From Halobacteriales archaeon QS_4_69_31 (GTDB lineage Archaea > Halobacteriota > Halobacteria > Halobacteriales > Haloarculaceae), in assembly GCA_003021655.1 (NCBI GenBank), contig PXRP01000023.1:1-64000 (forward strand): a stretch of 64,000 nt of DNA, written 5' to 3'. The notes below the pieces were generated by a model, which did no database searches, was not told the DNA's origin, and saw only the letters and a list, made by a program, of their open reading frames with translations. Shown in pieces: positions 1,917 to 54,022 of this stretch. How positions within the stretch are numbered: position 1 is the first letter of the stretch; each line of letters starts with the position of its first letter. The position numbers were made by a program, and so were the translations under genes.

Positions 1917-4628
1917 TTACATGAAGTTCCCGAGGCCGGTCTGTTCCTGGCCGCTCTTGACCTCCTCCCAGGAGACGTCGAGCGCTTCGAGGATGCGCGC
2001 GATGGGGCCCTTGAGGGTCTTGTCGAGCATCTTGTTCCAGTCGACCTCGAACTCCTCGGGGACCTGGTCGTCGTACTCGAAGCAGATGACCCCGTCGTCG
2101 GCCGCCACCTCCCGCTTGAATTCCCCGTACAGCGGGTCCTCGGCCGGGTCGAGGCCCGTCTCGTCTTCGATGCGGCGGAAAAAGGCCGGGTGGACGTTCT
2201 CCAGGTAGAGCCGTTTCGGCTTGGACCCGTTGCCGAAGTTCGTGTCCAGGAGGAGGTTCGCGTACTTCGCGCCCCGGACCTGGGCCGTGTCCGTGTCGTA
2301 GTTGTCGAGGTTCTTCCCGATACCGCCCGGGATGCCCACCTCCTCCAGGCTGACGTTCCCCGCCTGGAAGTCCTCGATGACCTCGTGGACGTACTCTTTG
2401 ACGTCCTCGATGTCCTCGCCGTGGACGATCATCTCGATGACGTTGCGCTGGACCTCCTTGGTTATGGCCGCGATGTCCGAGCGCTGGTACTCGAAGCCCG
2501 TGATGTCGATGTCGTCGACCTCTTTGCCCTCCTTCCAGACGATGTGGCCCGCGTACCGTTTCTTCTTGCCCGCCTGGAAGAACCGCCGGTAGACCTTCTC
2601 GAACTCGATCTCGAAGCGGTGCTCCTCGGCGTCGAGTTCCTCCCGCGCGAACTCGTCGTAGGAGTCGTTGATCCGCGCTTCGAGTTCGAACGAGGCGTCG
2701 ATTATCTCCTCCGCAGACATATCGGTTCCAGGACTTATCATAACACTGTCAGTATCTCCGTAGATCACCTCGTAGCCGAACTCGTTGACGGTCTCCTGGG
2801 TGTAGTTGATGACCTCCCGACCGGTGGCGGTGACCGCCGCCGCGCTGTCCTTGTCGTACAGGCGGAACCGGTCCCATCCCGATACGCCGTACAGAGAATT
2901 CATTATTACCTTGACGCTTGCCTGCTGTCGGTCGTATATTTCGTACGCTTCAGTGCCTGATTCGTGCGAATCTCGGAGGTTTTTTTTCTCTTCGCGTTCT
3001 GTCAGAAGTTCGTCGATCATCTCCCGCATCATCCCCGGAGGTTCCGCGCGGAAGTGCTGGCCCGTCGGGGTGCGGAACGTCTCGCCGTCGTACGCCTCGG
3101 GGTCGACCATGGTCTCGGGCGAGGCGTTGGTCGTCCACATGCACATGGGGTACAGCGAGGCTAAATCTAGTACGCTGACATTTTCGCGGACGCCGGTGAT
3201 CGGTTCGAAGACAGCGCCGCCCTCGAACTCTTCGCCCGATTCGACGGTGCCCTTCGAGGGGAGGGCGAACTCGCCATGGGCCTTGTGGAGGACGTACATG
3301 TCGACGGCGTCGCCGGCGGTCGGGGCGTCTTCGAGTTTGCACCCGACGAAGGAGGCGACCTCCTGGAAGAAGGCGATGATGTCCTGCTTGCGGTCGAGTT
3401 CGACACACAGCTCCACGTCACGGAGGTTGTACTCCAGCAGGCGCTCGGGGTCGTCCTCCCACAGGTCCCCGATGTCGCCCGGGTACCGTTCCTTGCCGGC
3501 GCCGAGTTCGCGTTCACCGACGGCGTCGAGCCGGTAGGACTCCAGTTCCGTGAACTGTGTGGCCCTGTAGGCCCGCAGCAGGTCGAAGACGACCCGCCCC
3601 TTGATGTCGGGCCCCTGCCAGTCGCTGCGCCAGACCTCGTCGACCCGCGAGAGACGGTCGATGTCGAGGTCGTAGTCGTGGGTCGGGCTCTGGAGAGCCT
3701 CCATGCGGTCGAGCAGGTACGGGGCGTCGAAGTCGGCGAAGTTCCAGCCGCTGAGGATGTCGGGGTCCGTGGCCGCCAGGTAATCGACGAACGCCTCGAG
3801 CATCGCTTCCTCCTCCTCGAAGACGCGGACGTCGGCCTCGAAGTCCTCGACGAGGGGTTCGTAGGCCGCCAGTGCCGTCGGGCCGTCGACGCCCTCGGGG
3901 GACTGGTAGAGCCAGTTGACGTACTGGTCGGTGTAGGAGTCGTGGGAGGTGAGACAGACGATGGGCTCCTCGCCGTCCTCGGGGAAGCCCCGGCGGTCGT
4001 CGACCTCGATGTCGAAGAAGTTGACCCGGGGGGTGCCCTCGGCCTCGACGGCCTCGACCTCCTCGTGGGGGACGCGGACGACGCCGCTGTCTGTCCGCCG
4101 GTCGGGCACGCGGATGCCGTCGGTGATGTCCTTGTCGATGAGAAAGCGGTTGGGAAAGAGGATGTCGGCCTCGTAGTGGTCGAACTCGTCGCGGACCTGC
4201 CCGACGTCCCGCGGCGTGCGGCCGATTACTTTGACGAGTCGCTCGCCCCGTATCGACTCGAAGGGTTCGCCGTCGTCGTCAGTCTCGCGGTAGTCGACGA
4301 GGCCGTCGTACTGGGCGATTCGTTCGTCGTCGACCTCGTCGGCCGGGGCGTAGAAGTACGGTTCGAAGTCGTACACCTGGACGTGTTCGAGGTCGTCGTC
4401 GGCGGTCCGGCCGAAGACGTGGATGACGGGGAACTCGTCGTCGCCGCGTCCTTCGACCGTGTAGTCGACCTGTGTCACCGACACCGCGAGCGCGCCGTCC
4501 GCCTCGGGGAACCGTACCGAATCCGGGTCAACGACGGTGGTCGCGGTGTCGTCGTCGGCAACGGCGGCGGCCTCGGCGTCGGGCCGTCCGCCGCCTCCGT
4601 ACGCCCCCAAGTCCGCTTGCTCGGTCAT
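1917..4628 (-). CDS. polB: Family B replicative DNA polymerase (intein-free)
   Basis: Replicative DNA polymerase with 3'-5' proofreading, 903 residues. Exonuclease motifs: Exo I FFDIEVDD (about 207), Exo II WNFADFDAP (about 296), Exo III YNLRDVEL (about 401). Polymerase motifs: A DLASLYP (about 487), B MNSLYGVSG (about 577), C YGDTDSV (about 624). No intein is present, yet codon use becomes AT-rich at exactly the three usual intein sites, in GAA-AAT-to-TTA codons before motif A, a long tract before motif B and codons GGA-to-TCT around motif C. A TATA-like GTATTTTACGG at 4650-4660 sits 26 bases before the ATG, indicating a leaderless message. Single gene, not in an operon. Confidence 0.97.
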   Translation of the reverse strand: MTEQADLGAYGGGGRPDAEAAAVADDDTATTVVDPDSVRFPEADGALAVSVTQVDYTVEGRGDDEFPVIHVFGRTADDDLEHVQVYDFEPYFYAPADEVDDERIAQYDGLVDYRETDDDGEPFESIRGERLVKVIGRTPRDVGQVRDEFDHYEADILFPNRFLIDKDITDGIRVPDRRTDSGVVRVPHEEVEAVEAEGTPRVNFFDIEVDDRRGFPEDGEEPIVCLTSHDSYTDQYVNWLYQSPEGVDGPTALAAYEPLVEDFEADVRVFEEEEAMLEAFVDYLAATDPDILSGWNFADFDAPYLLDRMEALQSPTHDYDLDIDRLSRVDEVWRSDWQGPDIKGRVVFDLLRAYRATQFTELESYRLDAVGERELGAGKERYPGDIGDLWEDDPERLLEYNLRDVELCVELDRKQDIIAFFQEVASFVGCKLEDAPTAGDAVDMYVLHKAHGEFALPSKGTVESGEEFEGGAVFEPITGVRENVSVLDLASLYPMCMWTTNASPETMVDPEAYDGETFRTPTGQHFRAEPPGMMREMIDELLTEREEKKNLRDSHESGTEAYEIYDRQQASVKVIMNSLYGVSGWDRFRLYDKDSAAAVTATGREVINYTQETVNEFGYEVIYGDTDSVMISPGTDMSAEEIIDASFELEARINDSYDEFAREELDAEEHRFEIEFEKVYRRFFQAGKKKRYAGHIVWKEGKEVDDIDITGFEYQRSDIAAITKEVQRNVIEMIVHGEDIEDVKEYVHEVIEDFQAGNVSLEEVGIPGGIGKNLDNYDTDTAQVRGAKYANLLLDTNFGNGSKPKRLYLENVHPAFFRRIEDETGLDPAEDPLYGEFKREVAADDGVICFEYDDQVPEEFEVDWNKMLDKTLKGPIARILEALDVSWEEVKSGQEQTGLGNFM

Positions 4629-5640: not shown

Positions 5641-5800
5641 TCCTGTTTCTGTGTCGGAGCTTGTACCCGACGTGGGCACAGTGGTTCCAGACTCCGCAGG
5701 CGGCTTCCCTTTACAGGCGGTTCGGAGTGTCCCACTCCTACCTGTTGGACACTCGGCCACAACCGCCGGCGCACGCTTTTTGTCGTCGTTCGAGAGAGCA
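5584..5800 (-). pseudogene. tnpB: C-terminal remnant of a TnpB-like nuclease
   Basis: Minus-strand frame ending in ETGSPDLNKRGPGRPERG and a stop at the structured right end. The ETGSP-x-LN pattern just before the stop is typical of C-termini of haloarchaeal TnpB proteins of the IS1341 group. The zinc-ribbon and RuvC motifs expected upstream are missing; beyond about 5800 the frame passes through short palindromes and shows no family resemblance. I read it as a remnant after loss of the rest of the element. The frame stays open to about 6009, but I see no evidence that this extension codes for anything. Confidence 0.45.
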
Positions 5801-5838
5801 AAGCTCTCTCGTGATGACGAAACGGCTTCGCCGTTTCG
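5791..5838. repeat. Two adjacent perfect palindromes
   Basis: 5791-5811 is a 9-base stem with an AAA loop (CGAGAGAGC/GCTCTCTCG). 5818-5838 is a second 9-base stem with a TTC loop (CGAAACGGC/GCCGTTTCG). Only six bases separate them. A third inverted repeat, ACTACCCC/GGGGTAGT, sits at 5879-5905. All three lie in the decayed TnpB region. They might be terminators, or target or integration features of small mobile elements; the sequence alone does not decide. Confidence 0.6.
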
Positions 5839-6047
5839 AACCACGTTTGAACGCCGGCGGAGACGTGGCGAGCATCGTACTACCCCGTTCGACCGCGGGG
5901 GTAGTAAACATGGCGGAGACCGTGTTTGCGAACTGTGCGGGCGCTGTATCCCCTCCCTACTCCGCTCCCTCCGGTCACTCCGTGGAGGAAGGGGGATTAG
6001 CGCCCTCACCGCAGAAGCTAACAGCCGCTGGAACGCAAGAGTCGTGT

Positions 6048-6482
6048 ATGCGGACAGTCAGCGACGAGTCCGGCGACAGGTACCTGTTGCTCAAGGAGTC
6101 GGGCGAGTCCTCGCTGGTCAGGGACCCGGAGACGGGCGAGACGCGACACGTCCCCAACGACCGCCTCTCAGTCGTCGAGGGCGAGTCGCCACTGGCGACG
6201 GCCGGGCGGGCGGTCCCCGACCATCTCCGTCGGGTCGTCACCGCGGTCCACGACGAGCGGGCGCTGGGCCTCCTGGTCACCGTGGACCGCCGCGCACCCG
6301 TCGACGTCAGGACGCTACTGGAGGCGACCGACTGCTGTGAGAGCGACCTCCACGGGATGCTCGCGGAGTTCCAGGCAGCGGGGCTGGTCGCGGAGACGGA
6401 CGTCTGCGGCGTCCGGGGCTACGAACCCACTGCCGACGGCGAGCGCGCGCTCGCGGCGCTGACCGAGGGCGGTCGGGACTGA
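6048..6482 (+). CDS. Predicted winged-helix DNA-binding protein
   Basis: 144 residues. The N-terminus (MRTVSDESGDRYLLLK, then SSLVRDPETGETR) resembles a short beta-sheet domain. Residues about 60-140 look like a winged helix of the MarR/ArsR sort: helices around ALGLLVTVDR and VRTLLEATDCCESDLHGML, then GLVAETDVCGVRGYEPT as the wing. A TATA-like GCTAACAGC lies about 26 bases before the ATG. It is the only intact gene between the TnpB remnant and rad50. A transcription regulator is likely by fold, but the target is unknown. Confidence 0.65.
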   Translation: MRTVSDESGDRYLLLKESGESSLVRDPETGETRHVPNDRLSVVEGESPLATAGRAVPDHLRRVVTAVHDERALGLLVTVDRRAPVDVRTLLEATDCCESDLHGMLAEFQAAGLVAETDVCGVRGYEPTADGERALAALTEGGRD

Positions 6483-6722
6483 GGCCCGTACGCGTCGCTG
6501 GTCATTGACACGTTCGTTCTGTGACTATCTTGGTGACTGTTCGGGTTTACAATGGGTCCAGGTACTGGCTCGACTGTATGGCAGGCGTAGGCCCGCGACC
6601 GTTTGCAGCCAGGGAGATATCTGACGAAGTACATAAAATTCCGCTACCAGACCGGATCCACCGACGAGAGATCGGACTGCTGGGGCTGTTGAGCGAGTTC
6701 GAGTAGTGCGCCCATCCAGGGC

Positions 6723-6817
6723 GGTCAGTCCGCCGGGAGGCACTCTGCCACGGTGGTCGGTCCGCGAGCAGTCACTCGGCGCGGGGAGGTCAGTCCGCGA
6801 GCAGTTGCTCGGCGGGG
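6723..6817. repeat. Three imperfect 30-33 bp tandem repeats overlapping the rad50 3' end
   Basis: Units at 6723-6754, 6755-6787 and 6788-6817 each begin GGTCAGTCCG or GGTCGGTCCG. The last unit is the coding end of rad50 (the codons for EQLLAD and the stop), so the array appears to have grown by duplicating the 3' end of the gene into the spacer. The remainder of the 307-base spacer (6483-6722) shows no gene that I can support. Confidence 0.7.
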
Positions 6818-9522
6818 TCCTCGCGCGTGACCGTCGAGCGGTTGGTCCGGGCGTCCTTCCGGACGCGGACGAGGTCCTCGGCGGCGCTGACCAGTTCCTC
6901 GTCGTGGCTGACGACGAGTATCTGCTCGACCCCGTACTCGCGCATCGTCTCGACGAGTTCGACCAGCTGTGAGACGTGTCCGGAGTCCAGAAAGACCGTC
7001 GGCTCGTCGAGGATGAGCGGCGGCAGCGGCGCGGCGTCCTCGATGCCCTCGGCGAGCAGCCGGTAGATCGCACACCGGAGACTGAGGTTGAACAGCGCAC
7101 GCTCGCCACCCGAGAGCTGTTCGGGGTCCAGGGGCTCCCCGTCTTTCTGGTGGACCGTCAGTTCGTACTCCCCGGAGAGTTCGATCCGGTCGTAGGAGTC
7201 GTTCTGGTAGACCAGCTCGAAGATCTCGTTGAGCATCGCCTCCAGGCTCTCGACGTTGCGCTGGCGCAGGTCCGCCCGCAGGTCGCCGTACATCCGCTGG
7301 AGAGTCTCGGCTTCCTCGTACAGCGAGTCGAGCCACTCGACGCGCTCGGCGAGGCGCTCGCGGCGTTCGCGCAACCGTTCGAGTTGCTCGATATCTTTTT
7401 TGACCGCGCCGACGCTCGCCTGCAGGTCGTCGCGGCGCTCCCGGAGGTCGTCCAGCCGCGGCTCGACCTGTTCGAGGTACTTTTCCGCGCGGTCGCGTTC
7501 CTCGCGGGCCGTCTCGACGCGTGACTCGTCGAACTCCTCGCGCAACTGGTCGCGGCGCTCGCGTTTCTCGACCAGTTGCTCGCGGCGCTCGTCGTTGAAC
7601 GACGCGAGTCGCTCGCGTTTCTCGCGCAGGCGGTCGACCTCCTCGCCCAACTCCGCGACCGTCTCCAGTGACTCCGCGACCCGTTCGAGGCGGTCGCGGC
7701 GTTCTCGCAGTTCCGTCCTGGCCGTTTCGTACTCGTCGATGCGCTCGCGGCAGGCCGCCGCCGCCTCCTCGTGGTCGCTCGCGGCCTCGCGTTTCTCGTC
7801 TGCCTGTGCCGCCAGGTCGTCGGCTTCCTCGCGCAGCGACTCGACGCTCTCCTCGCGCTCTTTCAGGCGGGACTCCCGCTCGGAGACCAGTTGCTCGACG
7901 TTCTCGCGTTGGGTCCGGGTCTCCGCGACCTCGCTTTCGACCTCGACGAGGCGCTCTGCCCGGTCGAGGCGCTCGGCGAGGCGTTCGCGCTCCTCCCGGG
8001 CCTCCTCGAGCTTCGATTCGAGGTCGGCGAGGCGCTCGCGGTCCTCGTCGATGGTGTCGACGTGGGGTGCGCCCTCGACGTCCTGGCCACATTCGGGGCA
8101 CTTGCCGGCCTCGAGGAGCGCCTCGGTCTCGGCGATGGCCTCGCGCTGGGTCTCGACCTCGGTCTCCAGTTGGGTCACACGCTCGCGGGCCTCTGTCAGG
8201 TCCGCGGCGACCGACTCGCGGAACGACTCGGCCTCGCCGAACGCGACCGAGGCCTCGACCCCGGAGGCGAGGTCCTCGAACTCCGCCTCCCGGTTCTCGG
8301 CCGTCGCGGCGAGGTCCGCGACGTCCTCGCGGCGCTCGGCCAGCGTCTCGCGGGTCTCCTCTAACTCGGTTTCCAGCTCGTCGGCCTCCTCGCGTGCCTC
8401 GCGTGCCTGTCGTTCGCGGTCCTCGGCCTGCTCTCTGAGCGTCTCGGCCTTGCTTTCCTGTTCGTTCTTGTCGACGCGTTCCTCCGCGATGTCGTCCCGG
8501 CGGTCCTCGGCCTCGGCCTCGACGGCCTCGATTTCGGCCGCGACCGCGTCGGGGTCGACCGCGTCCGGGTCGGCCCCCTCGGGATCCGCGGTCTCGCCAT
8601 CGCCCGTCTCCAGGTCCGTTTCGGCCAGCAGGTCAGCGAGGTCCTCGCGGACCGACGCACGCTCGGCCTGTCGGTCGTCGACCCGGTCGGCAAGGTCCTC
8701 GCGTTCGCGCTCGGTCTCGGAGACCTGCTCGCGTAGCTCATCGATGTCCGATTCGAGGTCGGCCAGTTCCGCGCGGTTGTCCTCGTACTCGTCGAGCAGG
8801 TCCTGGGCCCGGTCGCGGGTCTCGACTGCCTTCTCGCGCTGTTCCTCCAGGTTCGCTATCTCCTCTGTGGCCTCCGCGAGGTCGCTCTCAAGGGCGTTGA
8901 GCCGGTCGTGGAGGTCCTTCTGTTCCTTATCGGCGACCTGTTCGTCGAGCTGGGAGAGCGCCCCGCGCTTGTCCTCGCGGACGCGCCCGACGCCGCGGCG
9001 GGCGTCGCTGGCGCGCTCGCGGTACTCCTCCAGTTTCCCCAGTTGCAGGAGGGAGTCGAGCATGTCCTGGCGCTGGCCTGGCGAGGCGTTGATGAGTTTG
9101 TTGACCTCGCCCTGGCGGACGTACGCGCAGTTGACGAACGCCTCGGCGTCCATCCGGAGCAACTCCTCGACGTAGCCGCGGACGTCGCGAGCGCCCTCGA
9201 CGGTCCCGTCGGGCGTCTCGAGAACGCACTTGTCCGTCGACGGCGTCTCGCCGGTGGCACGGACCCGGCGTTCGACGTGGTACTCAGTGCCGTCGTGAGT
9301 GAACCAGAGTTCGACTTCGGTCTTGTCCGCGCCGATCGTGACGACCTCGTCCAGGGTGCCCGCGAGCGCCCGCGAGCCGTACAGCGCGAAGAAACACGCC
9401 TCCAGCAACGAGGACTTCCCGCTGCCGTTCAGCCCGTAGATCACCGTCACGCCCCCGCGGAGGGTCAGGTCCGCGTCGCCGTAACACTTGAAGTTCGAGA
9501 GCCTGAGGCGGTCGAATCTCAC
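6790..9522 (-). CDS. rad50: Rad50, DNA double-strand-break repair ATPase
   Basis: SMC-like ATPase that with Mre11 tethers and processes DNA ends, 910 residues. Walker A is at the N-terminus (GLNGSGKSS, about residue 30). Long coiled coils of charged residues flank a zinc hook CPECGQD at about 475. The C-terminal half-site has the signature LSGGERALF and Walker [14 protein letters not shown]. The start ATG overlaps the stop of mre11 by three bases, giving tight coupling. Length and domain order are normal. The 3' end is repeated twice in the downstream spacer. Confidence 0.97.
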
Positions 9523-22388: not shown

Positions 22389-24083
22389 ATGAGTCTGGAG
22401 GACCCCGACACGGGCGCGATAGAACCGGCCGAGGAGACCGCAGTCGGCGTCACCGACGAGGGGCTTGACTACGACGCACTCGCCGACCTGCTCGGCGACC
22501 GGCTGCTCGACCGCGAGGAACACGTCAACGCCGAGGGGTTCGTGGTCCGGCCCGACGAGGTCCGGTCGGTACTTTTCGATTTGCGCGACGAGGCCGGCTT
22601 CGACCACCTCTCGTGTGTCACCGCACAGGAGTACGACGACCGTTACGAGTCTCTCTACCACCTCAAGAAGTACGGTGCACCGACACAGGAGCTGTCGGTG
22701 GTCGTCCCCACGGCGAAAGACGAGCCGGTCAGCGAGTCGGCGAACCCGGTCTACCGGACCGCCGACTGGCACGAGCGCGAGGCCTACGACCTCGTGGGCG
22801 TCGAGTACGAGGACCACCCCGACCTGCGCCGGATCCTGTTGCCCGAGACCTGGCAGGGCCACCCGCTCGGCCAGGACTTCGACGGCGAGGAACCGCAGAT
22901 CGTCACCCTCCGCGAGCACGCCAACCCCCTCCAGGAGGACCACCGCGGCGACGACGCGGACACGATGTTCGTCAACATCGGCCCCCACCACCCCGCGACC
23001 CACGGCGTGCTCCACCTGAAGACGGTGCTCGACGGCGAGCAGGTCGCGGACGTCGACCCCGACATCGGCTACCTCCACCGGTGCGAGGAGCAGATGTGCC
23101 AGCAGAGCACCTACCGCCACCAGATCATGCCCTACCCCGACAGGTGGGACTACATCTCGGCGGGCATCCTCAACGAGTGGGCCTACGCGCGCGCCGCGGA
23201 GGACCTGGCCGGCATCGACGTCCCGGAGTACGCCCAGATCATCCGCACTATGTCGGCCGAGCTGTGCCGGATCGCGGCCCACCTGCTCGCGATGGGGACG
23301 TTCGCGCTGGACGTCTACGGCGACTTCACCGCCATCTTCATGTACGCCGTCCAGGACCGCGAGCGCGTCCAGAAGATCCTCGAGGACCTCACCGGCCAGC
23401 GGCTGATGTTCAACTACCTGCGGCTGGGCGGGGTCGCCTGGGACATCCCCGAGCCACGCGAGGAGTTCTTCGAGAAGACGCGGGACCTGCTCGATGACAT
23501 GCCCGAGCGGCTCGCCGAGTACCACGACCTGGTCACCTCCAACGAGATCTTCCAGCTCCGGTGTGTCGACACGGGCGTGTTGCCCCCCGAGGAGGCCAAG
23601 TCCTTCGGGGCGACCGGGCCCGTCGCGCGCGGCTCGGGCATCGATTACGACCTCCGCCGGGACGACCCCTACGGCCACTACGACCAGCTCGACTGGGACG
23701 TCATCACCGAGGAGGGCTGTGACAACTACGCCCGGGTGCTGGTCCGCCTGCGCGAGGTCGAACAGTCCGCGCGGATCATCGAGCAGTGTGTCGACCTGCT
23801 CGAAGACTGGCCCGAGGACGAACGCGAGATCCAGGCCAACGTCCCGCGGACGCTCCGGCCCGACCCGGACACCGAGGTCTACCGCGCTGTCGAGGCCGCC
23901 AAGGGCGAACTGGGCATCTACATGCGCTCGGACGGGACCGACCAGCCCGCCCGGTTCAAGATCCGGAGCCCGTGTTTCTCGAACCTCCAGACCCTGCCGG
24001 TCATGTCCGAGGGCGAGTATATCCCCGACATGATCGCCTCGCTGGGGAGCCTGGACATCGTGCTCGGAGAGGTGGACAGATGA
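22389..24083 (+). CDS. nuoCD: NuoCD fusion, quinone-binding subunits of Nuo
   Basis: 564 residues. Residues about 20-165 are NuoC (YHLKKYGAPT, REAYDLVGVEYEDHPDLRRI), and about 190-564 are NuoD/49-kDa (NIGPHHPATHGVLH, HRCEEQMCQQSTYRH, RLGGVAWDIP, ending VLGEVDR). Fused C and D subunits are normal in several lineages. The GPHHPATHG loop shapes the quinone site. The stop overlaps the nuoH start by ATGA. Confidence 0.95.
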   Translation: MSLEDPDTGAIEPAEETAVGVTDEGLDYDALADLLGDRLLDREEHVNAEGFVVRPDEVRSVLFDLRDEAGFDHLSCVTAQEYDDRYESLYHLKKYGAPTQELSVVVPTAKDEPVSESANPVYRTADWHEREAYDLVGVEYEDHPDLRRILLPETWQGHPLGQDFDGEEPQIVTLREHANPLQEDHRGDDADTMFVNIGPHHPATHGVLHLKTVLDGEQVADVDPDIGYLHRCEEQMCQQSTYRHQIMPYPDRWDYISAGILNEWAYARAAEDLAGIDVPEYAQIIRTMSAELCRIAAHLLAMGTFALDVYGDFTAIFMYAVQDRERVQKILEDLTGQRLMFNYLRLGGVAWDIPEPREEFFEKTRDLLDDMPERLAEYHDLVTSNEIFQLRCVDTGVLPPEEAKSFGATGPVARGSGIDYDLRRDDPYGHYDQLDWDVITEEGCDNYARVLVRLREVEQSARIIEQCVDLLEDWPEDEREIQANVPRTLRPDPDTEVYRAVEAAKGELGIYMRSDGTDQPARFKIRSPCFSNLQTLPVMSEGEYIPDMIASLGSLDIVLGEVDR

Positions 24084-25144
24084 TCCCGCTGCAGTCCGCG
24101 ACGCCCCTGCCGTCGGCCATCGCGGAGTTGCTCGGCCTGGACCCCTCGAATCCGGCCGTGCTGTTCGTGCTGGCGTTCGTCGCCGCCGGCGCCATCGTGT
24201 CGGTGATGCTGGGGATGACTGCGGTGCTTGGCATCTGGGGCAAGCGGAAGATCACCGCGGCGTTCACCGACCGGATCGCGGTGAACCGCCACGGGCCGTT
24301 CGGGCTGCTCATCATCCCGGCCGACGCCGTCCGGCTGCTCTCGAAGGAACTCATCGTCCCCGAGGGCGTCGACCGGCCGGCGTGGGACCTCGCGCCGCTG
24401 GTGGTCGCCAGTTCGGCGCTGCTTGGGTTTGCTGTCATCCCGTTCGGCAACGGCGTCCAGATCGCCGACCCCGAGATCGGGCTGGCCTACGTGCTCGCGA
24501 CGGCCTCGATCGCGTCGCTGGGGCTGTTGATGGCCGGCTACGCCTCGAACAACAAGTACTCGTTTCTCGGCGGGCTCCGCGCGGTCGCACAGAACCTCGC
24601 CTACGAGATCCCGCTGGTGTTGACCGCCGCGTCGGTGGTCATCTTCGCGGGGTCGCTCCAGCTGTCGACAATCGTCGCGTCCCAGAGCGAGACGCTGGTG
24701 TCGCTGGGCGGGGTCGCCATCCCGTCGTGGTACGCCTTCGTCAACCCCTTCGCGTTCGTCCTGTTCATGGCGGCGAACCTCGCGGAGGTCGGGCGCAACC
24801 CCTTCGACATCCCCGAGGCACCGACCGAGATCGTCGCCGGTTACCAGACCGAGTACTCGTCGGTGTACTTCGTGCTTATTTACCTCGGCGAGTTCATCCA
24901 CATCTTCCTCGGTGGGGCCATCGTCGCGACCATCTTCCTGGGCGGTGGCGCCGGGCCGGTCCTGCCGGGTATCGTCTGGTTCTTCATCAAGATGACCGCG
25001 GTCTACCTGTTCACCCAGTGGGCGCGCTCGGCCGTCCCGCGGCTGCGCATCGACCAGCTCATCGAGATCGGCTGGAAGGGCATGCTCGTGCTCTCGTTCG
25101 CGAACCTGGTCCTGACGGCCGTCATCGTCGGGGTGATCCAGTGA
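24080..25144 (+). CDS. nuoH: NuoH, membrane subunit at the quinone channel
   Basis: 354 residues, about eight membrane helices. Family motifs: KRKITAAFTDRIAVNRHGPFG (loop 1), AEVGRNPFDIPEAPTEIVAGY (the E/D-rich conserved loop, shortened here) and FIKMTAVYLFTQWARSAVPRLR near the C-terminus. The start is the ATG at the ATGA overlap with nuoCD. Confidence 0.95.
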   Translation: MIPLQSATPLPSAIAELLGLDPSNPAVLFVLAFVAAGAIVSVMLGMTAVLGIWGKRKITAAFTDRIAVNRHGPFGLLIIPADAVRLLSKELIVPEGVDRPAWDLAPLVVASSALLGFAVIPFGNGVQIADPEIGLAYVLATASIASLGLLMAGYASNNKYSFLGGLRAVAQNLAYEIPLVLTAASVVIFAGSLQLSTIVASQSETLVSLGGVAIPSWYAFVNPFAFVLFMAANLAEVGRNPFDIPEAPTEIVAGYQTEYSSVYFVLIYLGEFIHIFLGGAIVATIFLGGGAGPVLPGIVWFFIKMTAVYLFTQWARSAVPRLRIDQLIEIGWKGMLVLSFANLVLTAVIVGVIQ

Positions 25145-50878: not shown

Positions 50879-51740
50879 CGCGACCCCCGCGGCCGGTGAC
50901 GGGACCGCCGCGAGCCGCGCCCGCGCCACCGGCGGGGGCGACAGCCCCGGACGGGGGACCCGCGGGACGGGCGGCTACTGGACGCTGTTCGTTGCCATGG
51001 TCAAACACAGGGTCGCCCACCTCAGGCGGTATCCCGTGAACACGCTGTCGGGGCTGGCCAACGCGATGATCCTCTTCGCGGTCATCTTCTTCGGCGGCCG
51101 GGCGCTGGACAGCCGGGCGCTGGCCGACAGCCTCGAAGGGATCATCGTCGGCTTCTTCCTGTTTTCTATCGCGACGACGGCCTTCGCGGCCTCGGCGTGG
51201 GGCGTCACCCGCGAGTCCCAGTGGGGGACGCTCGAACAGCTGTACATGTCGCCGCTCGGGTTCGGGCCCGCGATGCTCACCCGGACGGTCGTCCGGCTCA
51301 TCGAGAGCTTCGTCTGGGGGGCCGGGACGCTGGCCTTCATGCTCCTGTTGACCGGCGAGACGCTCGCGTTCCCCGTGGTGACGCTCCTCGTCGTCGGCGT
51401 ACTGGCCGTGGCGCCGGCGCTCGGGATGGGCTTTGGCTTCGCCGCGCTGGCGTTACTGTACAAGCGCGTCGAGAACATCTTCCAGGTCGTCAACTTCGCG
51501 TTCGTCGGGCTGATTTCGGCGCCCGTCAGCGGGGTGGTCTGGGCGCGACTGCTCCCGGTCTCGCAGGGGAGTTACGTCCTGGGCCTCGTGATGCGGGAGG
51601 GCCGCCGGCTCTGGGAACTCCCGTCGACCGAACTCGGTCTGCTCGTCGCCACCGCGATCGGGTATTTCGTCGCCGGCTACGCCGTCTTCATGTGGGCCAG
51701 CAGGCGCGCCCGCGAGCAGGGACTGATGGGCCATTACTGA
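50871..51740 (+). CDS. ABC-2 type permease
   Basis: 289 residues with six membrane helices after a Gly/Thr/Ser-rich N-terminus. Contains GTLEQLYMSPLG, the coupling-helix pattern of ABC-2 (NodJ/daunorubicin-type) permeases, and KRVENIFQVVNFAFVGLIS. GTG start overlaps the ATPase stop. A near copy of its 3' end (GGGCCATTACTG, then GGGCCACTACTG at 51744-51755) follows at 16-base period. Confidence 0.88.
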   Translation: MSDATPAAGDGTAASRARATGGGDSPGRGTRGTGGYWTLFVAMVKHRVAHLRRYPVNTLSGLANAMILFAVIFFGGRALDSRALADSLEGIIVGFFLFSIATTAFAASAWGVTRESQWGTLEQLYMSPLGFGPAMLTRTVVRLIESFVWGAGTLAFMLLLTGETLAFPVVTLLVVGVLAVAPALGMGFGFAALALLYKRVENIFQVVNFAFVGLISAPVSGVVWARLLPVSQGSYVLGLVMREGRRLWELPSTELGLLVATAIGYFVAGYAVFMWASRRAREQGLMGHY

Positions 51741-51847
51741 CGAGGGCCACTACTGCAACCTGTCCACCCGCTAACGCTTCCGTCGCAAGTCAATCCGCAA
51801 CCAACACGAAAGCAGGCTTATCAGCACGTTTCGGTAACCGGTACGAT

Positions 51848-54022
51848 ATGGACGAGCGGACCGACGGGGCAGGTCCGGAGAGCGAGGTGGAGCCGACGGC
51901 CGAGGTGGAGGCCGACACCGGGACCGCTTCCGGCGAGGACGGACAGACGGGCGGGAAGACGACGCGCCGCCGGAGGCTCGAACAGTACGAGCGGATCGTC
52001 GAGACGGTCGACGACGGGGTCTACGTTCTCGACGAGGAGTTCAACATCGTGCGGGTCAACGACGCCGTCTCGGAGTTGACGGGCTACTCGCGGTCGGAGC
52101 TAGTCGGCGCGAACGCGGCACTGCTCGCCACCGAGGAGACGATAGACCAGGCCGCGGCGGTCAGCGAGGCCCTCAGGACGGGCGACGGGAGTGCGGCGAC
52201 GATCACGACGACGATTCAGACGGCTGACGGCGACGAACTCCCGGTCGAGACGCGGTTCTCGGTCTACGAATTCTCGGACGGGAGCTACGGACAGGTCGGC
52301 GTCGTCAGGGACATCTCCGACCGGCTCCGGTACGAGCGGACGCTGACGGCGCTGCACGACTCGACGCGGGAGTTGCTTCACGCCGAGACGCCGGCCGAGG
52401 TCTGCGACCTGGTCACGACCACCGCGACCGAGGTCATCGACCTCTCGGCGGCGGCCGTCTACCTCCTCGACGCCGAGGCGACCGCCCTGCGCCCCGAGGG
52501 GGCGGCAACCGACCGTCCCTCGTCGCTCCCCTCGCTTGACCCCGTCAGCCCCGGCGACGGGCCCGTCTGGGAGACGTTCGTCACGGGCGAGCGGCGGGTC
52601 GGCGCCGCGGTCCCGCCCGCAGAGGCGGGCGATGACGACTCGCCGGGTGGCGGGGTCTTCATCCCGCTCGGCGACCACGGCGTGTTCTCCGTCGCAGTCC
52701 CGGACGTCGACCGGGTCGACCCCGACACGATGGAACTCATCGACCTCGTGGCCGCCAGCGCCGAGGCGGCGCTCGAACGCGTCGACAGGGACGCCCGCCT
52801 GCGGGAGCGCGACCGCGAACTCCGCGAGCAGAACGAACAGCTCAGGCGCCTGGAGGGTATAAACGAGGTGATCCGCCGGATCGACCGCGCGGTCGTCGGC
52901 GCTGACTCGCCGGACGCGGTCGAGTCGGCTGTCTGTGAGGAGTTGGCCCGCTCGGAACTGTTCACCTTCGCGTGGATCGGCCGGGTTGATGGCACGGCCG
53001 TCGAGGCCGGCGCCTGGGCCGGCGACGGCTCGCAGTATCTCGACGCCGTCGACCGGTCGCTGGCGGGCGAGGGTGGCCCCCCGGCGGTCAGGACCGCACG
53101 GACCGGCGAGAAGACCGTCGTCCCCTCTGTCGTCGCGGACCTCCAGGCCGAGCCCTGGCGGAGCGAGGCCCTCTCCCGGAGGTTCCAGTCGGCCATCAGC
53201 GTGCCACTCAGGCGCAACGAGGCGACAGTCGGCGTCCTGACTGCCTTTACCTCCCGGCAGGGCGACGTGACCGAGCGGATGGGAGAGGTGTTCCGCGACC
53301 TCGGAGAGACTGTCTCGGACGCGTTGCGGGTCGCCGAGACCAAACAGTGGCTCTCTGCCGAGAGCGTCGTGGAACTCGACCTGGCGATACGGGCGCCCGA
53401 GAGCCCGCTGACGGCCCTCGCGACCGAGGTCGGGGCCGACCTCGTCCACGACGGCACTATCGCGACCGACGACGGGGCAAGCCGGACGTTCTTGCGCGTC
53501 GAAGGAGCGGACTTCGGGGCCGTCCGGGACGCCGCCCGCGAACAGGCCGCCGTCGAAACCGTCGAGAACCGGTCGGCCGACCCCGAAGACCCGCGCGTCG
53601 AACTCCACCTGTCCGCGCCGACGATCCCCGAGCGGGTGACCGACCAGGGGTCGCGGATCCAGTCGCTGACGGTCGGGGCCGACGAGACCGCGATGACGGT
53701 CCAGGTCCCGCTGACGGCGACTGTCCGCGACCTGGTCGAACGGCTCGACGCCGCCTACGAGTCCGCCCCCCTCCAGGCCCGCCGCGACCGGACCAGGCCC
53801 GCGCGGACGGCCGACGGCTTCCGGCTCGCCGTCCGCGAGGGTCTCACCGACCGACAGTGGCGGATCCTCCGGTCGGCGTACCTGAGCGGCTACTTCGACT
53901 GGCCGCGAACTACCACCGGCGAGGAGGTCGCCGACTCCTTCGACGTCTCCCAGCCGACGATCAACCGTCACCTGCGGGTGAGCGAACGCAAACTCCTCGC
54001 GCTCCTCTTCGAGGACGACTGA
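51848..54022 (+). CDS. PAS-GAF-GAF-Bat-HTH_10 sensor-regulator
   Basis: 724 residues, a haloarchaeal bacterio-opsin-activator-type regulator. Order: acidic N-terminus; PAS (about 45-160, DDGVYVLDEEFNIVRVND, GYSRSELVG); GAF (about 165-300); linker coiled coil RERDRELREQNEQLRRLE; second GAF (about 330-470); Bat domain (about 495-640); C-terminal HTH_10 with LTDRQWRILRSAYLSGYFDW and SQPTINRHLRVSERKLL. It senses a small signal by PAS/GAF and activates transcription. A GCTTATCA box sits about 28-36 bases before the ATG. Targets unknown; the ABC exporter and the HalOD1 gene flank it. Confidence 0.9.
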   Translation: MDERTDGAGPESEVEPTAEVEADTGTASGEDGQTGGKTTRRRRLEQYERIVETVDDGVYVLDEEFNIVRVNDAVSELTGYSRSELVGANAALLATEETIDQAAAVSEALRTGDGSAATITTTIQTADGDELPVETRFSVYEFSDGSYGQVGVVRDISDRLRYERTLTALHDSTRELLHAETPAEVCDLVTTTATEVIDLSAAAVYLLDAEATALRPEGAATDRPSSLPSLDPVSPGDGPVWETFVTGERRVGAAVPPAEAGDDDSPGGGVFIPLGDHGVFSVAVPDVDRVDPDTMELIDLVAASAEAALERVDRDARLRERDRELREQNEQLRRLEGINEVIRRIDRAVVGADSPDAVESAVCEELARSELFTFAWIGRVDGTAVEAGAWAGDGSQYLDAVDRSLAGEGGPPAVRTARTGEKTVVPSVVADLQAEPWRSEALSRRFQSAISVPLRRNEATVGVLTAFTSRQGDVTERMGEVFRDLGETVSDALRVAETKQWLSAESVVELDLAIRAPESPLTALATEVGADLVHDGTIATDDGASRTFLRVEGADFGAVRDAAREQAAVETVENRSADPEDPRVELHLSAPTIPERVTDQGSRIQSLTVGADETAMTVQVPLTATVRDLVERLDAAYESAPLQARRDRTRPARTADGFRLAVREGLTDRQWRILRSAYLSGYFDWPRTTTGEEVADSFDVSQPTINRHLRVSERKLLALLFEDD

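Follow-up and report, generated by a model that had tools for sequence, protein, structure and literature searches.

Codons ending in A or T accumulate around the intein insertion sites of haloarchaeal replication genes, and this compositional halo occurs with or without a resident intein. In this report, we establish that the halo exists, that it centres on intein sites and varies with intein state, that distant genomes have its haplotypes in common, and that flanks are linked to inteins. We think it probable that the halos are the trace of the intein homing cycle, and that they mark hotspots of short-tract conversion between lineages. The case at hand is the intein-free polB of the window, by which we mean the whole stretch of 64,000 nucleotides analysed from Halobacteriales archaeon QS_4_69_31.

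The polB gene of the window

The product of this gene has the polymerase and exonuclease domains of family B, and the gene is free of inteins (Table 1). The fraction of third positions occupied by A or T (AT3) is 0.116 over the whole gene, yet A/T-ending codons reach maxima of 11/15, 12/20, 16/30 and 21/42, values that 0 of 2000 synonymous shuffles attained in windows of 15, 20, 30 and 42 codons. The maxima of AT3 fall at codons 539-585, which is site b, where the cluster lies before and across the site, and at codons 620-645, which is site c. A weaker cluster (GAA AAT gtc agc GTA CTA GAT TTA) terminates precisely at the pol-a site, and past it more than 25 codons lack A or T in the third position. 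The -1 codon of pol-a is AAG or AAA in 109 of 112 intein-free genes; that of the window polB encodes Ala. Among the 38 predicted genes of the window, the polB cluster is the strongest after two over-extended ORF starts are discounted: the higher AT3 clusters at 51197-54019 and 23786-25141 are the over-extended 5' ends of ORFs.

The preliminary description had claimed AT-rich codon tracts at the pol-a, pol-b and pol-c sites of an intein-free polB, and these tracts are real, lying beyond every synonymous shuffle. Its count of 6 of 8 A/T-ending codons before motif A was reproduced, as were the 11 of 15 at motif C and the tract of about 42 codons at motif B, half of them (21/42) A/T-ending; the reported run of eight A is also present. 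Its intein boundaries are right for pol-a (3159/3158) and pol-b (2898/2897). Its placement of pol-c at GDTD/SV is not: the insertion point is YGD/TDS (2754/2753), two codons upstream, because the inteins of relatives end ...LHN/TDS.

Table 1. Features of the window polB (positions in the window)
Feature	Position	Strand	Remarks
polB, family B DNA polymerase, 903 aa, intein-free	1917..4628	-	PF00136, PF03104
AT-rich tract a, codons 472-489	3162..3215	-	Stops at pol-a site 3159/3158; core GAAAATGTCAGCGTACTAGATTTA
Codon 490 GCC (Ala), -1 position of pol-a	3159..3161	-	Lys in nearly all relatives
AT-rich tract b, codons 540-582	2883..3011	-	Mainly upstream of pol-b site 2898/2897
AT-rich tract c, codons 624-642	2703..2759	-	Around pol-c site 2754/2753; core GGAGATACTGACAGTGTTATGATA

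The halo in relatives and control genes

AT-rich tracts at intein sites are not peculiar to the window polB. In 131 other haloarchaeal polB genes, AT3 around b and c exceeds the gene background by about 0.08-0.13 (p<1e-8, a nominal value that, like the others given here, overstates independence, as the genomes are phylogenetically related), and control stretches of the same genes have no such rise. At site a, a family-wide halo is all but lacking, in the genes with an a intein as well. The gene copies are a non-random sample of the class, the genomes having been picked as relatives of the window, and the junction alignments are based on tblastn. The AT3 halo survives amino-acid correction, and in corrected form it extends over about ±30 codons in polB (b and c), in DP2 (the PolII large subunit) and in MCM. 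In DP2, the excess spans -30 to +30 codons of the intein site and is 0.00 beyond; in MCM, it occupies codons 316-445, which contain the three intein sites of that gene. C>T and G>A both increase on both sides of the site, with no strand pattern.

No halo was found in RadA (a Walker ATPase) or EF-2 of the relatives, which are flat except at the 5' end. It is likewise missing at b/c in 33 intein-free polB genes of methanogens and relatives (-0.029), whose third positions are mostly GC-rich. In the genome of the window itself, the intein-free MCM gene has no halo. The DP2 gene of this genome still holds a LAGLIDADG intein with an AT3 of 0.29, and its extein has an AT3 of 0.40 in the upstream flank, 0.28 in the downstream flank and 0.06 in the remainder. 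This intein (in L132, 126-6062) is 493 aa long and carries an HTH-like insert with weak Pfam HTH matches.

Dependence on intein state

The halo of DP2 is 0.245 in intein-free genes (n=20), 0.158 in genes with a full-length intein (n=25) and a non-significant 0.051 where the intein is a mini-intein, about 180 aa long (n=21); these intein classes were set by length, and the mini-inteins are those without a homing endonuclease. Mini-intein genes differ from intein-free ones (p=2.5e-4; p=0.002 on genus means) and, by within-genus permutation, from all the rest (P=0.042). The difference between full-length and mini-intein genes is non-significant within genus (P=0.47). Under plain co-conversion, the strongest halo is expected in the alleles that hold inteins. 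This is not what we found, in that the intein-free DP2 genes exceed those with full-length inteins, and the overall polB halos of intein-bearing and intein-free genes are little apart (0.129 vs 0.096). The AT3 of DP2 inteins and that of their flanks are related by a trend only (rho 0.33, p=0.09).

Because mini-intein genes encode the same extein, the DP2 contrast is the strongest argument against protein constraint. Neither the conserved motif nor the protein accounts for the halo, and motif constraint in its simple form is refuted by the mini-intein DP2 genes and the methanogen polB genes. Since the halos centre on the sites, are weak or absent in mini-intein genes and are lacking in the intein-free methanogens and in control genes, the link of the tracts to inteins is well supported.

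Shared haplotypes and flank-intein linkage

Distant genomes, defined as pairs with less than 80% background amino-acid identity, share runs of identical codons that include at least four AT codons. For polB there are 170 such pairs, against 8.6 expected by column shuffling and 2 in a control region; for DP2 there are 35, against 5.0 expected and 0 in the control region. When at least five AT codons are demanded, 69 polB pairs are left, with 27 runs spanning site b and 11 spanning site c, the latter count being slightly inflated by a few genomes that were fetched for carrying the c string. In 30 of these 69 pairs, both members are intein-free. The identical strings in distant genomes rule out independent mutation as their source.

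The identity of polB-b inteins predicts codon identity in the surrounding 60 codons over and above the background (partial Mantel r=0.286, P=0.0005), with r near 0 in control stretches. The corresponding correlation in DP2 is weak (r=0.154, P=0.012), and one control region has a similar value (0.127). The flanks thus move with inteins and, apparently, also without them. That many of the strings span uninterrupted junctions, and that the DP2 halo is strongest in intein-free alleles, fits the spread of intein-free and possibly resistant haplotypes.

A same-genus relative and the age of the tracts

The genus is represented in our sample by two genomes in all, that of the window and QH_10_67_22 (G001, or L053), whose polB is 87% identical in amino acids to the window polB. 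In the sister gene, site a holds an intein of 402 aa and site b one of 397 aa; its c site is empty. The two genes have AT codons in common at 10 of 16 positions upstream of b, 8 of 10 around c and 2 of 9 at a. Being common to both genes, the tracts at b and c probably arose before the divergence from this intein-bearing sister. At the pol-b junction the codons are AAT TCT in the window and aac tcg in the sister.

The haplotype of tract a is the window genome's own; it is absent from the sister and matches another genus. Its core, GAAAATGTCAG[C/T]GTACTAGATTTA, occurs without mismatch (allowing the C/T wobble) in one other of 394 genomes of the class, G293. The core of tract c is exact in G294, and with up to two mismatches it is found in 17 of the 394 genomes, from 7 genera. 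The tracts are very uneven between relatives of the window polB.

The search for a donor

A viral contig of 134 kb (IMG/VR 3300021446_000176; L397/L437) encodes a PolB that is 58% identical to that of the window, with an AT3 of 0.40. It contains the c string GATACTGACAGTGTTATGATAAGT exactly, a match that is itself selected, as the contig was found by searching with that string; the informative point is that in 2.9 million contigs the sole match to the string lies in a PolB gene, at the homologous place. The viral and window genes agree at 14 of 19 codons around c, against 38 of 105 in the background. The viral PolB also has Ala before site a, like the window polB; its codons at a and b do not match those of the window. 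PolBs of cultured haloviruses are about 30% identical to this protein, which is of the cell-like haloarchaeal kind.

No DNA match to a donor of the tracts was found in cultured phages, and the pol-b string had no match in the viral search. Among plasmids, two polB genes match at 69-70% over a broad stretch that is not confined to the tracts. The search thus yielded no single AT-rich donor for all three tracts, and none for a and b; the matches are piecewise, with G294 and the viral PolB (at c only) for tract c, and G293 for tract a.

Other insertions in the polB genes of relatives

In two relatives, Halorussus litoreus (L044, 6974-10686) and Salinibaculum sp. KK48 (L047, 6800-10644), polB is split at one and the same place, after KKRYAG and before ITGFEYKRSD. 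Between the halves lies an ORF of about 290 aa that overlaps or adjoins the polB pieces at its ends. It has a NUMOD3 motif, the two copies have about 66% DNA identity, and by its sequence it looks like a free-standing homing endonuclease. Two further polB genes (L097, ~1640-2967; L070, ~5671-7001) hold an intein in the exonuclease domain (GWN/C...HN/C, near codon 298/299 of the window polB) and have no a or b intein. We take this to be, probably, the polB-d allele listed for Halobacteria.

Explanations of the halo

In the reading that we favour, the empty sites of haloarchaeal replication genes would be cut again and again by intein homing endonucleases. Homologous DNA from other lineages would serve to repair the breaks, and conversion would reach about 90 bp to each side. 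The templates would be AT-richer: alleles with an intein (co-conversion), or intein-free ones that are spared cutting. Synonymous A/T-ending codons could build up around the site in this way. In alleles locked by an immobile mini-intein, cutting would end and the halo would be lost. The window polB, though intein-free, would then have retained the halos of all three sites. That endonuclease cutting and conversion cause the halo, and where the AT-richer DNA comes from, are what we infer from these patterns.

A serious rival is that synonymous changes were selected in intein-free alleles against endonuclease cutting or donor pairing, with the immune haplotypes spreading between genera. Under this proposal, the window polB would be an immune allele. 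We judge it unlikely as the explanation of the halo, and it could be part of the same process as homing-driven conversion. It draws on the peak of the DP2 halo in intein-free alleles and on the identical AT strings that distant intein-free genes carry across uncut pol-b and pol-c junctions. The codons at the cut sites also bear on it. At +1 of site a, Ser is encoded by AGY in 42 of 111 intein-free alleles and in 0 of 18 intein-bearing ones (within-cluster P=0.0018); at site b, the counts are 18/78 and 1/52 (within-cluster P=0.0012). In the window polB, this serine codon is TCG at site a and TCT at site b. Further, the MCM-a footprint is AT-richer when the site is empty (P=0.011). Against selection for resistance, the halo, at about 90 bp per side, is broader than a LAGLIDADG recognition site, the excess specific to the footprint over the wider flank is non-significant at polB a, b and c, and homing endonucleases are reportedly tolerant of single synonymous changes (PMC3024317). 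The scarcity of AGY next to inteins has two readings: either AGY stops homing, or inteins always carry in their own TCN codon. That intein-free alleles of polB, DP2 and mcm, synonymously recoded and immune to the endonuclease, spread horizontally and have the AT-rich halo as their signature is a possibility that we entertain tentatively.

The preliminary description explained the window polB by invasion of all three sites from an AT-rich donor, through co-conversion, followed by the precise loss of the three inteins. Its premise of intein-linked tracts stands, on the centring of the halos, the flanks that travel with polB-b inteins and the AT strings in distant genomes. The triple invasion itself is one of several histories, and to our minds an improbable one; the recoded, homing-resistant allele that was also offered is a live alternative. 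The two inteins of the sister, the AT codons that it has in common with the window at b and c, and the flanks accompanying polB-b inteins are in keeping with invasion. However, the sister has no c intein, its pol-b junction codons differ, tract a is unlike the sister's and matches another genus, and loss by recombination with an empty allele normally replaces the flanks as well.

AT-biased errors of repair, accumulating near endonuclease breaks with no donor involved, would fit a halo that is highest at empty, cuttable sites and lowest with mini-inteins. We consider this very unlikely, since identical multi-codon AT strings in distant genomes require shared descent or transfer, and the C>T and G>A rises are bilateral; single-strand deamination after resection is ruled out by the absence of strand asymmetry. 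Least credible of all is that constraint on conserved active-site motifs (RNA structure, slow codons or amino-acid composition) accounts for the AT-richness, with no part played by inteins: as inteins lie in such motifs, their location by itself does not discriminate, but the halo outlasts amino-acid correction, has no counterpart in RadA, EF-2 or the methanogen polB genes, nearly vanishes in mini-intein DP2 genes with the same extein and is uneven among relatives.

Relation to known systems and significance

In Haloferax volcanii, which has an active polB homing endonuclease, inteins home in polB by gene conversion, for which flanking homology is required (PMC3024317), and co-conversion of a flanking residue is documented at MCM-d (PMC10643990); intein flow and the allele sites in Halobacteria have also been described (PMC4071816). 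The halo resembles co-conversion (PMC10643990, PMC3024317) in that short stretches of the host gene next to the insertion site either accompany it in its movement or are rewritten. The known cases, however, concern the codon beside the site or a laboratory construct, whereas the signal reported here is synonymous, extends ±30 codons, and is found in three genes, across genera and in intein-free alleles too. Searches of the open-licence literature turned up no description of a composition halo at intein sites. As the homing cycle of inteins (PMC1654191) would lead one to expect, the empty state, the full state with endonuclease and the degenerate mini-intein state behave differently here. That cycle concerns the element, whereas the halo is left in the host gene, as a record of the state. 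There is also a likeness to the drive-resistant target-site alleles of homing gene drives, in that synonymous recoding would protect an essential target from a homing nuclease; the difference is that resistance is here one possible reading of a codon pattern.

If homing is what left the halo, genome sequence alone would suffice to detect earlier attacks or exchanges in genes that have since lost or do not hold an intein, and the history of natural gene drives could be read in this way; synonymous sites close to intein sites are unsafe for phylogeny and for codon-usage studies. The contrast of empty, full and mini-intein alleles offers a direct test of the homing-cycle model. The same contrast tests whether hosts evolve resistance to natural homing drives by synonymous change, a current question in work on engineered drives. 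Should the immune alleles prove true, they would represent natural resistance, at the level of populations, to a natural gene drive.
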